A stretch of DNA of 64,000 nucleotides from Heterotrichella gracilis (Eukaryota; Sar; Xanthophyceae; Tribonematales; Xanthonemataceae), in the NCBI GenBank assembly GCA_032358255.1, contig JAULBX010025009.1, positions 1 to 64,000 of the forward strand, written 5' to 3'. Below, piece after piece: positions 4,373-55,800 of the stretch. Each line of letters begins with the position of its first letter. The stretch's first letter is position 1. Below the pieces are notes generated by a model. The model was given only the letters and a program-made list of their open reading frames with translations. It was not told the DNA's origin and searched no databases. Made by a program: the position numbers and the translations under genes.

Positions 4373-5541
4373 CTCGGCACGGTGACACTGTCGACAGGTG
4401 CTAGCACTAGCTGAACAAACTCACCCTGACGCTATGGTCGGCAACTGGTGGTGGCTGTGCGTCCGGTGTCGAAGGTGTTGTTCATATATAGGCAGCAGCG
4501 CAGGGGAAATACAATATTTTAGAGGCAAACCCACAGCAGCTGTGGGCCACAGTTTTGTGGGTGGAGTATTTTGGTCTGTATTTTGGCAAATGTGGCAATA
4601 TCCTTCCAAAATATCAGGGTGCTACTAGCAAAGCTGAATAGGCTACATAGTGCCTGATGCATCTGGATTAAAAATGGTTGGTATTTCAACCCAATCTGCG
4701 ATCATTGCCACTTTTTACGCCATGTCATGCTCAACCATCAGAGTAAACAATATTTGTCCCGTGAAGTTGAGCAACCAGTGTGACCGGTTGCCACGGCTGG
4801 GGATTGTGTCCAACGACCGTTCATGAAACTACTCAGCCTGGAACTGGTACTGAGGGCACTTGCACAAGGTGGACCACCAGGTGTGCCCGGAAAGTCGCAG
4901 GGACGAGGGTCTTGCACTGGTGGTCACGGTGGTGGTGCTGGCAAGGCAGGTACATCCCTTTTCCTGTCTATGAGTTGGTGTGCATGGGACCGCCCATGGA
5001 GTGGAGAGACCTCAGGAGGGGCCCACCACGCACAGGGTCTACACACACAGTGTGCCCGAAAGCGCAAATGCTGTAAACGCAACAGTCTTGTGCGCCCGGG
5101 TTGGCTCCCTGAATGTGACTGTCAAATAAATCTTGTAAAACTTGCAATGCATGGTAGCCTGCAAAATTTCCAAATTAAAAAGCAACGCAGGCAAGCGGCC
5201 AATTAGAATGCACACTGACTGCATGGGCCGGTTGAAGCAGTGTGAAAAATTCTTGCACTGGAAGACTGAACATGCTGCTGTCCACATCTGTCCTTGGCAC
5301 CCCAGCTACATAAATAAGACGAAACGATACGTACACGGTCACGAGGTATAGGCTGCCTGCATTCTAAGTGCCCTGCCCTGTCACGAAGCGGCTGATTCGC
5401 CGCCAGTGCTGCCCACAGCGCCCCTGGCCCAAGGCCAACTGCTGCAGCCTCCCTCCCTGCTGCACTTCTCCACACCAGCCACTCTAGCATGCCCCACTGA
5501 GTCACCCCAGCAGCCATCCTGTGGCCCATGTTGGACCCAAC
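4373..5541. other. Intergenic region, includes decayed copy of a WW exon end
   Basis: No gene supported. The stretch about 4765-4810 is similar to about 2675-2725. About 5455-5530 (minus strand) is a decayed direct copy of the end of the last exon of the WW protein, with the recognisable reading WGMLEWLVWRSAAG against WDMPEWLAWRKASG. Confidence 0.55.
4483..4491 (-). promoter_or_regulatory. TATA-like element upstream of copy B
   Basis: On the minus strand this reads CTATATATG, about 110 bases upstream of the start codon of the second paralogue. The position fits a core promoter, but no transcription start is known and AT-rich hexamers occur elsewhere in the window. Confidence 0.3.
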
Positions 5542-6165
5542 TCACAGTTCATCGTTGCCAGATGCCTTCCTCCATGCCAGCCACTCTGGCATGTCCCAGG
5601 CGGTGTCCCCCGACACATCATTGTAGTAGTACTCCCGCCCAGTCTCCTCGTCAAAGTGCACAGACCAGGCAGCCTCGATGGGCCTCTCCCAGGTGGTTTC
5701 GCCTGTCTTGGGGTCCACGTAGAACTCCTCCCCTTCCTCGGTGTGCAGGATCAGGGTGGGGTCCTCCCACTGCGACTTGCCCGTCACCTGAGAAGAATAT
5801 TATTAAAGGGAATCCTGAGAATGAGGAGGTATATGACCAGAAATATTGAAGGAGACTGAGACTGAGGTTGATGGTTAGAACTGAACGCAACAATCACGAC
5901 CCGTCATGCTCACATAGGCAGGACGCTGGGGACAGACGCTACATCCTGAGACGGAGGCGTGCAGAGCCTGCGCGCCCATATGCACTGCACTGCCACCCAC
6001 CTCGTTGTACCAGTAGCCCTCCACGTCCTCCCCGTCGTACTCCTCGGTGCGCGCATCCTCCCTGCTGGGCACTGGCCCAAGGTCCTCCAGCTCGTCCGCT
6101 GAAACCTGCAGCAGGAGGGCTGAGCCAAGCACCAGGCAAAGGCACAGCAGGTGGGACCACCGCAT
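5542..6165 (-). CDS. Secreted/ER triple-WW protein with C-terminal NDEL
   Basis: Two exons, 6165-6001 and 5787-5542, phase 0, 136 aa. Residues 1-23 (MRWSHLLCLCLVLGSALLLQ...) are a clear signal peptide with a plausible cleavage site after VSA. Three WW-type modules follow. One is split by the intron (GYWYNEV|TGKSQWEDP, residues 50-65). The second is at about 76-91 (FYVDPKTGETTWERP). The third is complete at 96-122 (Trp96 to Trp119, then DMP). WW modules normally bind Pro-rich ligands in the cytosol or nucleus. The last residues, GNDEL, resemble a K/HDEL-type ER retrieval signal, so an ER-lumen protein is inferred. The stop codon overlaps a GTGAGT motif, so a spliced longer form cannot be excluded. 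No enzymatic domain is seen. Confidence 0.75.
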
Positions 6166-52866: not shown

Positions 52867-55800
52867 ATGGCGTCCGAGGTGCGCAGGCTCAACGCCCACG
52901 TCGCACCGCTCGAGTTGGGCGACGCATGCATGCGTTGCCCCATCTTGCATGCATGTGTGCTCCATGCCTCTCACACCAGATTGGCCAATGGAACCTGACG
53001 CCCACCTCACGCCCAATACAGACCGCGGGGAAGCCCATCGAATGCAAGGCGGCTATAGCCTTTGGGCCCAAGCAGCCCCTCAAGATCGCCACCGTCACGG
53101 TGGCACCGCCTCAGGCGGGGGAGGTTCGCATCAAGATCGTAGCAACTGCCTTGTGCCACACCGACTCGTATACGCTTGATGGGCTGGACCCCGAGGGCTT
53201 ATTCCCCTGCATCCTGGGCCACGAGGCTGCTGGGATAGTGGAGAGCGTGGGGGAGGGGGTGACCTCGCTACAGCCAGGTGCGTTGGGGAGGGTGGGCGGG
53301 CAAGGGCATGGCTTGCATAACCCTGCGGGTGGGAGCTGCCCTGGGGAGGGCGTATAGTCAGACAACGTGCTATCTCATCAGCACTGCTATGGGTCAGGAG
53401 AGATAGTATGGGTTGGACTCTCATGGCCTGGTCCCTTACCTGAGCCACAAAGCTGCTGGGATAGTGGCACGTGGGGGGGAGGGGGTGGGCTCACTGCAAC
53501 AAGGTAGGGGCACCCACTGGAGGGGTGGGCGCATGGCCATGCGTAGCACAAGTGCACTCCGCAGAAATAAAGGTCGCCCCTGGCAGCTAAACCCTAGACC
53601 CTAGCTTAGTGTAGGGGTATTAAGGACTATACTATGGGTGCAACGGGGCTGTGGTGGTATTTGCGGGTGCTGAAGGCTGTTTTGGCCCTGTGGCAGGTGA
53701 CCACGTCATCCCGTGCTACCAAGCCTACTGCGGCGAGTGCAAGTTCTGCAAGCACCCGGACAGCAACCTGTGCGTGGCGGTGCGGGCCTTCACCGGCAAG
53801 GGGGTGATGAAGAGCGACGGGAAAACCAGGTTCACACACGAGGTAGGGAGTGGGTGACCAGGCCATGGGTGCTAAATAACCCTACTAAAACACCCTAGAA
53901 ATCCATGGCAGTGGTTAATTTGCTCTGCACAAGGACTGTTGCTCTATTCACTCGCAGGTGCCTGCACCTACACTGTGCCCTCGCCTGTATGCCTCCGCCC
54001 CTCCAGCCCCCTTCCCTGCCAACACCCACCCTCACTGCCCACCCTCCATCCCCCCCCACCTGCCCTCTGCTCACCCCACACCCACCTGCTCTCAATTACC
54101 CTCACCCCACTTTGGCCCCCTCCCTCCCCCCACCCAACACTTCCCTCCCCTCCTCACCCCACCAACCCCCCTCTTTCATCCCCAGGGCGAGCCCATCTAC
54201 CACTTCATGGGCACATCCACCTTCTCGGAGTACACGGTGTTGCACGAGGTCAGTGTGGCAAAGTTGGACCCAGCTGCACCGCTGGACAAGGTGTGCCTGC
54301 TGGGCTGCGGGGTGTCAACAGGTGAGGCGGGGGCGGGGGGTGGGGGGGTGGGACCATGCGGGGGGAATGTTGCTTGAGTGGTGCCGGTGGGAAGGCTTGG
54401 CATACCTCTTGTGGGGATGATGTTCAACTGAGACAACGTCGGCCGTGGGTCAGTTTTGACCTGTGCAGAAGTCTGTCCTGCACCACATCTCGTTGTTCAG
54501 GGGTTAGGATTTAAGGTTACCTGCGACACCCTGGAAGTTGCATGACGAGCACGGCTTCATCCCATGAGTAACCATTGAGCGCAGACCCAAACCCCTGGAC
54601 TCTAATTACCAACCAAGGCTGGGGCGCGGTTCCACGGTCCTACACAGTCCAACCCAAAACCCTTAACCTGCACCCTAACCACCGACCCACACCCTTGCAG
54701 GCTGGGGCGCCGTGTTCAACACCGCCAAGGTCAAGCCTGGCACTACTGTGGCTGTGTTTGGCCTGGGGGCGGTGGGCCTGGCTGTCATCGAGGCTGCGCA
54801 GCGCGCCGGTGCCTCGCGCATCTTCGCCATCGACCTTAACACCTCAAAGTTTGAGATTGCCACTAGGTGGGGTGCCACCGACTGCCTCAACCCCAAGGTA
54901 CGCTTGCTGAATGCCCTAAATTTGAAATCGTGTTTTCAAGTATTAAGAAAAACAAATCTTGATTTTGCTTTTTGTTAAATGAGTTGTCATGTAAATCTAA
55001 CAATAACTATTTATAAGCACTATTATGTTAAGGGCATAAAATGTTTTTTGTGCTGCAGGACTACGACAAGCCCATCCAGAACGTGCTGGTTGAGATGACC
55101 GAGTGGGGCGTGGACTACACCTTTGAGTGCATCGGCAATGTGCATGTAGGTAGTGGGGTCGTTGGGTGGTCTGGGCAGAATCCAACTAGATTCATGTGTG
55201 ATGGGGCCATGGATAGGCCGGCGGGTAATGTGCCTGGTGGAGTGATCATGTTAGACACAACCAGTGAGTCGCATATGGACTGAGGGGCATGCACAGGCGT
55301 CACATGCGACACGGTGGCACATGCTTGCACATGGTGGCATGGAATTGAGCAAATAATGCATGACATGATGCTGCTGGATTGTGCAAACCACTGTCGTGGT
55401 CTGACATTGCTGGACCACACAAGGTGGCTGCTGGCCCTAAACTCCTCTTCCTTAGCCAGCGAGTGGCTTTTAAGATTAACAGGGAACAGGCTGCAAAGAT
55501 ACAATGTATATTATATCAGTATTTAAAAAATTACTTAGTTGTTAATATTCATTATTTTCATTTGCTGGCACAGGTCATGCGTGCTGCCCTTGAGGCTGCG
55601 CACCGCGGCTGGGGCCAGTCCATCGTCATTGGTGTGGCGGCAGGTGGCCAGGAGATCAGCACACGCCCTTTCCAGCTGGTCACTGGCAGGCAGTGGAAGG
55701 GCACTGCCTTTGGAGGCTACAAGAGCCGCATCCAGGTGCGCCGCCATGTCGGGCTGGTTCGGGTGGTTGAGGAAGAGTAGTGTGTGCACAGTGGCGTGTT

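Follow-up and report, generated by a model that had tools for sequence, protein, structure and literature searches.

Direct copies of splice junctions, often with telomere-type repeats between them, in the introns of Heterotrichella gracilis

Telomeric repeats in mammalian genomes have been reported as insertions at staggered breaks, accompanied by duplication of the target (PMC7215372, PMC2246262). Among such interstitial insertions duplication is given as a minor outcome, accounting for 6 of 130 cases in rodents, 4 of 25 in primates and 3 of 66 (plus 2 combined) in horse, and the share that falls in human introns is described as matching random insertion (PMC2246262, PMC7215372). For the telo boxes of plants, telomerase acting on free 3' ends that arise in transcribed chromatin has been proposed (PMC3022908), and a potato gene is described with a duplication across an intron-exon boundary, as well as an 83-bp duplication within an intron (PMC4974935). 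The main text of a review of intron-gain mechanisms does not contain 'telomer' (PMC3443670), and titles and abstract openings in an open library yielded no report of telomere repeats between intronic copies of splice junctions. Datable marks of the growth and origin of introns are few, and the question is an old one. Here we describe a window of 64,000 bases from Heterotrichella gracilis (C251:1-64000, GenBank contig JAULBX010025009.1), within a eukaryotic assembly of 68.5 Mb and 903 contigs, in which segments spanning exon-intron junctions recur inside the introns. The original prediction, made from this window, had noticed these copies and tentatively ascribed them to a junction-biased tandem duplication that is still under way and may give rise to introns; its observation is confirmed and its interpretation partly supported, and it overlooked the telomeric repeats that lie between the copies. 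On balance, we lean towards the reading that DNA broken close to splice junctions was mended with telomeric filler, some 50-150 bases being duplicated in the process.

The window was analysed together with 17 stretches of 10 kb each from the nuclear genome (numbered with an L), 234 kb in all, three AT-rich stretches being omitted. Gene finding on this set gave 392 introns with a median length of 249 bases and the acceptor consensus TGCAGG, cut before the last G. Nearby matches were sought in complex sequence, 40-1200 bases apart, at 42 bits or more; 119 were direct and 1 inverted, in agreement with the direct orientation that had been predicted. Counted by position, with a copy spacing of 60-260 bases, there are 64 clusters, comprising 58 with exon and intron, 2 with intron only, 2 with exon only, 1 intergenic and 1 with exon and intergenic sequence; both intron-only clusters begin 1-2 bases from a modelled junction. 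A direct repeat of at least 42 bits touches 77 of the 392 introns, and among the 47 genes that have at least three introns 26 have one or more touched. Events cluster by gene, one gene in stretch L016 being touched in 9 of its 9 introns. Touched introns occur in 12 of the 17 sampled stretches and were not found in the other five (L005, L008, L012, L013 and L018), so that local duplication spanning junctions is common across the genome and lengthens introns, as had been proposed. Copies accompany 41 modelled donors and 35 modelled acceptors, counts that include mis-modelled copies. Stretch L021 contains long tandem arrays at 3203-4628 and 7307-8362, mainly exonic, with units of about 125 bases and probably representing a protein repeat; these were excluded from the seam and junction counts.

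Within the window, 16 of the 17 intervals listed by the original prediction beat every control when their own surroundings (600 bases to either side) were set against up to 200 other places. The remaining interval, 36075-36238, failed this test on its whole length because its repeats sit inside it; the acceptor copies ahead of exon 36240 (36071-36262, plus strand) are nonetheless distinct, the acceptor and exon start at 36216-36262 scoring 21 against 36071-36205, as compared with 14 or less at 12 random places. The genes said to lack copies (two tandem paralogues and those named HEMA, DUF427 and kleisin, the names being that prediction's own) indeed show no event in the models at 479-4316, 38458-40687, 47882-48972 and beyond 56900. 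Over 41 events in which a copy spanning exon and intron was compared with an intronic copy, identity is 77% in exon columns and 69% in intron columns, about what is expected of one and of two decaying copies, and hence fits a frozen functional junction beside a free inner copy. Better preservation nearer the exon had been claimed as usual, and it holds in the two series inspected (0.93 then 0.72 at 28888; 0.92 then 0.73 at 20218). We give almost no credence to an assembly artefact: the assembly is fragmented into its 903 contigs and at least one contig looks bacterial, but copies mostly differ from one another by several to 40 per cent and inverted matches are almost nil.

The introns of this genome are rich in telomere-type sequence. 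Their three commonest 7-mers, AAACCCT, TAGGGTT and AACCCTA, are plant-type telomere words. For rotations of TTTAGGG the number of 7-mer hits is 973 in introns (113 kb), 37 in exons (75 kb) and 105 in intergenic DNA (44 kb); seven scrambled units of the same composition give 88-150 in introns. In the 68.5 Mb, ACCCTAAACCCT occurs 12,835 times (overlapping occurrences counted) and its backward reading 23 times; AAACCCTA reaches 1249 per Mb of intron, both strands taken together. Among the first 100 listed of 209 matches are TTTAGGG arrays that open contigs C70 and C140 in telomere orientation, and a putative telomerase, recognised by Telomerase_RBD above cut-off, is predicted in two pieces on C626. 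Telomeric tracts number 40 in introns, 2 in intergenic DNA and 1 in exon, and the shortest modelled introns (45-80 bases) are richest in telomeric content, at 0.090 as compared with 0.019-0.040 in the longer classes. The palindromes GCATGCA and TGCATGC are almost as frequent in introns as the telomeric words (97 and 93).

These repeats are associated with the copies. A telomeric 7-mer is present in 66% of the 77 event introns, compared with 34% of the 315 others (p about 5e-7, the Fisher tests on event introns using counts rebuilt from percentages); among introns of 100-200 bases the shares are 71% of 21 and 17% of 71. Acceptors with a telomeric word in their last 55 bases have an upstream copy of the exon start in 12 of 44 cases, and other acceptors in 14 of 262; for donors the corresponding counts are 12 of 59 and 16 of 260. 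Within event introns the repeats concentrate where copies meet: telomeric cover is 0.147 in 35-base windows at the seams, 0.082 in the rest of these introns and 0.027 over all introns. Across 72 junctions it is 0.118 between copies as against 0.039 past the last copy (p 6e-6), and telomeric repeat lies only between the copies at 26 junctions, only beyond them at 4, in both places at 17 and in neither at 25.

This placement bears on a different account, which we regard as possible but doubtful, in which ordinary tandem duplication by slippage or template switching takes place anywhere, the conserved exon keeps the junction copies recognisable, and telomere-like G-rich tracts are fragile promoters of duplication instead of filler. 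A fragile tract in the duplicated unit, or at both of its ends, predicts something other than tracts between the copies and not beyond them (26 junctions against 4). A tract in the unit, or slippage between tracts, would leave outer tracts, and filler between the copies is therefore the simplest account. Since the gap often holds telomeric repeat, we prefer repair with filler to the plain tandem duplication of the original prediction.

The filler shows no preferred orientation, the C strand being read at 13 acceptors and 10 donors and the G strand at 8 acceptors and 11 donors. The presence of both fits filler and not a splicing signal. Selection might conceivably have kept the copies as alternative exons, or the telomeric motifs as splicing signals, the C-strand repeat yielding CTAAC, which resembles a branch-point motif; C-strand repeats upstream of TGCAGG are somewhat commoner than G-strand repeats (824 versus 546), and some copies are still open in frame, for example 20340-20398. 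We nevertheless find this explanation improbable, given that the two orientations are about equal between copies, that multiples of three are not favoured among the distances between copies (22 of 86) and that inner copies decay.

The same association appears when the tracts are taken as the starting point. Intronic telomeric 12-mers are flanked by direct repeats in 16 of 39 cases and by inverted repeats in none, and 9-mers by direct repeats in 37 of 93; the controls are 14.9% for random intron positions and 5 of 79 for GCAT palindromes. In nearly all of the intronic tracts with direct-repeat flanks, one of the two copies contains exon sequence. Forward tests were made on two sets of 20 sites, hand-picked among the first 100 matches listed of a telomere repeat with TGCAGG. 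In the C-strand set, exon-start copies were found at 6 of 20 sites, all six exceeding their own controls, and in 3 of 380 mismatched pairs; in the G-strand set they were found at 7 of 20, six of the seven exceeding their own controls, and in 25 of 380. The flanks of the tract are repeated at 8 of 20 (mismatched 5 of 380) and 9 of 20 (35 of 380) sites respectively, and with both sets pooled at a score of at least 16, flanks are duplicated at 17 of 40 sites and in 40 of 760 mismatched pairs.

Telomere-like ends and long target duplications could also belong to a mobile element or introner, whose insert would be flanked by direct repeats. We consider such an element very improbable, since the 392 introns, masked for telomeric sequence, give 14 intron-intron matches on the plus strand, of which several are local copies, and 5 on the minus strand, rather than the many introns with shared sequence by which introners are known, and the gap is often just 12-27 nt. 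A filtered word count over the flanks of 62 tracts found no 9-mer common to more than two loci. Shared sequence beside the tracts, such as fragments of telomerase RNA, was considered as a separate candidate, and the same word count contained none.

The anatomy of single events, in which the telomeric bases of each printed gap were counted by eye, can be followed in the window on the plus strand. In the FkbM methyltransferase gene (a gene model with a Pfam FkbM domain), a functional copy of intron end, acceptor and exon start 28888 occupies 28864-28959. A decayed copy at 28748-28843 aligns with it over 96 ungapped columns at about 90% identity, 28772 mapping to the exon start, and the 20 bases that separate the two (28844-28863) are strictly telomeric at 12; an older third copy of the acceptor region lies at 28521-28681 (exon-side identity 0.72). 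A weaker pair of score 24, absent from the earlier list, comprises 33951-34020 and 34041-34108 (33951-34108 in all) at exon start 34067, with a telomeric gap at 34021-34040 of 20 bases, 13 of them telomeric. At 44423-44651 an exon end is present three times with telomeric repeats in both seams (Tandem Repeats Finder, TRF, period 87); here the pair 44484-44558 and 44571-44645 encloses a gap, 44559-44570, that is telomeric at 12 of 12 bases. Two gaps in stretch L020 measure 27 bases (18 telomeric) and 15 bases (12 telomeric), and in L042, L031 and L029 an acceptor and exon start are followed by a telomeric run and then by acceptor and exon start again.

Junction bias itself is harder to establish. 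Simulation of a uniform null with purifying selection and full tandem units gives 33-38% of repeats free of exon sequence, and four calibrated settings of the null give 47%, 34%, 15% and 1.4%, against 2 of 60 observed; the sole setting near the data combines old ages with many indels. As the exon-free expectation varies with the assumed age, a search with exons masked was used, in which conserved exon sequence gives no advantage. This returned 28 clusters, 21 within 15 bases of a junction, 6 internal and 1 intergenic, and at least one of the internal clusters (28581/28766) sets a decayed exon copy against another decayed exon copy. If units of 75-130 nt were placed uniformly, 62-41% of the clusters should be internal, an expectation somewhat too high because it disregards chance contacts made by the second copy. 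Tandem duplication at any position is disfavoured by this test, in which a junction lies at 21 of the 27 intronic clusters as against 38-59% expected. The profile of probes has only a mild peak at junctions: copies in their own intron are seen for 29 of 306 probes at donors and 30 of 311 at acceptors, and still for 4-8% of those inside introns, a part of which detect the copies themselves. Tandem duplication is in turn favoured by the better preservation of exon than of intron columns, as neutral decay predicts, by the mere 1.4% of exon-free repeats under the all-old uniform null, and by the 28 of 71 testable pairs whose intron homology runs past +15, the pattern expected of full tandem units; GGG-rich intron starts and CCC-rich intron ends could, moreover, stall forks. 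Because the nulls span 1.4% to 47% with age, great age of the events could by itself produce an apparent bias. We judge the junction bias claimed by the original prediction to be likely but not proven, the masked clusters upholding it and the probe peak being mild. In the 150 introns of at least 300 bases, the first 20 positions contain GGG at 7.8 per 100 bases and the last 20 contain CCC at 8.6, and G-rich DNA beside junctions that breaks or stalls forks may be the reason why junctions are involved. In recent pairs (n=43) the median exon part is 50 and the median intron part 18. Copies that end exactly at splice sites, derived from the spliceosome or from RNA, were considered and dropped as a general rule because of the 28 pairs that extend beyond +15; single cases are possible.

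Repair with telomeric filler would proceed as follows. The DNA of a transcribed gene would break close to an exon-intron junction, and the broken end would gain telomere-type repeats, a few TTTAGGG units presumably added by telomerase, before rejoining. The 50-150 bases round the break would be copied, either through a staggered break with both overhangs filled or through an extended 3' end that re-primes upstream, two routes which leave identical sequence and are indistinguishable here. The product would consist of a junction copy, telomeric filler and a second junction copy. Splicing of the RNA would stay with the outer, intact junction and the inner copy would decay freely inside the intron, lengthening the intron and leaving the protein unchanged; recurrence at one place would yield two or three copies.

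Several observations weigh against this mechanism. A telomeric 7-mer occurs in 32 of 74 seams and more than half are without one, so that older or filler-free events exist, and the filler is not universal or has decayed. Most printed gaps are just partly telomeric, and in the 44484/44571 pair telomere-like sequence lies inside the copies as well. At the threshold used, 23 of the 39 intronic tracts have no flanking repeat, and the association within genes is weak (z = 2.1, 23 genes). The forward sets are limited to sites near TGCAGG; among the G-strand sites some can be seen not to be exon starts, and low complexity makes the mismatched scores there high. The avoidance of intergenic DNA by telomeric tracts is partly circular, because the intron model had learned telomeric words: the gene models come from a purpose-written gene finder, self-trained on the same 234 kb from sequence alone. 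All readings are based on the DNA of one assembly and one haplotype. The duplications at mammalian telomeric insertions are also shorter than those present here.

A bolder form of the proposal is that synthesis of filler by telomerase, or of telomere type, at splice-junction breaks of transcribed genes is one of the main ways in which introns grow in this lineage, thousands of such events having become fixed, and that some short telomere-rich introns were born in this way. We offer it tentatively and think it rather unlikely; 'thousands' is an extrapolation from the sampled share and the 12,835 tracts. Some short modelled introns (44464-44519 and 44550-44602 in the window, and 7869-7943 in L020) do consist largely of telomere repeat with a copy of an exon edge on either side, and donor and acceptor sides are similar at a score of at least 18 in 14 of 350 introns (control 0.0), some of these being mis-modelled junction copies. 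Intron birth was rejected as the main reading of the window's larger events, because a long distance separates the copies from the opposite splice site, one copy, for example, ending at 13830 with its acceptor at 14163 and another at 53504 with the exon start at 53697. A genome where the filler and both copies of the target can still be read, perhaps at thousands of places, would allow break repair in genes to be counted, dated and mapped, and would permit a test of telomerase activity away from chromosome ends and of why events sit at splice junctions.

The remaining events of the window are mostly on the plus strand. Eight translated models were compared with Pfam; two had no family, and the other six contained WW, Kelch/BTB/BACK, FHA with RING, FkbM methyltransferase, S4/pseudouridine synthase and ADH_N. 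In the Kelch/BTB gene, the functional donor region at exon end 13675 (13622-13705; TRF period 84; Pfam Kelch/BTB) is followed by two decayed copies with a telomere-like seam (13706-13873). A donor region at 12913-13181 is present three times, with a TRF period of about 94. The FHA-RING gene (Pfam FHA and RING) has its functional donor-side exon end at 20153-20217 and two decayed copies of the donor region at 20338-20547 (exon-side identity 0.92 and 0.73). An array of acceptor regions with exon start 21001 (20814-21026; TRF period 107) includes the listed interval 20886-20930, which beats the controls. An acceptor region occurs three times at 29273-29487, the last copy being functional at exon start 29455 (TRF and self-alignment), and 30475-30618 is a decayed copy, 75% identical, of the donor region 30312-30455. 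The pseudouridine synthase gene (Pfam PseudoU_synth_2 and S4) has a TRF series of acceptor regions at 32968-33302, with exon start 33280. Further events comprise a donor region with a decayed copy at 34451-34639 (82% identity), an exon and donor segment with weaker copies at 34828-35120 (41 bits, the listed interval beating the controls), a repeated acceptor and exon region in units of about 136-141 nt at 42083-42397, and a gene-end segment with copies at 51107-51311, for which the model places a donor at 51154 and a stop codon is also readable there. In the S-(hydroxymethyl)glutathione dehydrogenase gene, 53408-53551 is a decayed copy of the donor region 53179-53320 (68% identity); it sits within the intron, because the protein spliced across 53277/53697 is colinear with the dehydrogenase structure PDB 7aas. 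On the minus strand, decayed copies lie downstream of and inside an intron of a gene (7579-8286), 9807-9915 copies the exon end 9990-10110 of a gene at 83% identity (9807-10110), and 5455-5530 is a copy beyond the end of the model of a WW-domain gene (score 27, control maximum 18; Pfam WW).

Some neighbouring observations can be added. The gene finder called the inner copies at 20340-20398 and 9799-9906 as extra exons, their frame being open, and telomere-like sequence directly precedes 20340. A short dispersed repeat is shared at about 79-81% identity by introns of different genes (12224-12294, 28138-28209 and an L009 intron from about 9190). The start of the contig, 1-100, is an inverted repeat that pairs with itself at 91%, possibly an end of the assembly or of an element. 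The AT-rich stretches are L003 (C1:20001-30000), L010 and L014, with 35-38% GC; L003 is packed with bacterial-type open reading frames, among them an L-aspartate-oxidase-like and a secretion-signal-like protein judged by eye, and the assembly seems to include bacterial contigs, C1 (894 kb) among them.

Mammalian interstitial telomeric sequences resemble the present events in their internal telomere repeats, altered flanks and direct target duplications ascribed to staggered breaks (PMC2246262, PMC7215372). Unlike the mammalian cases, 16 of 39 intronic tracts here have direct-repeat flanks, nearly all including exon sequence. Plant telo boxes are likewise short TTTAGGG-type motifs within genes, but they are known for 5' regions and reach 72 per Mb in rice introns, whereas the 1249 per Mb found here is linked to duplication, although strand conventions may differ between the two figures (PMC3022908). 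The border direct repeats of another study are similar in lying at intron borders and in being ascribed to breaks; those repeats are of 4-30 bp and relate the 5' to the 3' border of an intron, whereas here one border is copied, mostly over 50-150 bp, inside the intron (PMC11782384). The potato duplication also spans an intron-exon boundary, but its account concerns one gene in which splicing makes a new intron and a new exon of the added copy, and mentions no telomeric filler, whereas the usual outcome in the present introns is a longer intron with a decaying copy (PMC4974935). On the filler reading, the present case joins elements that are known singly, namely a break, telomeric filler and a long duplication across a splice junction.

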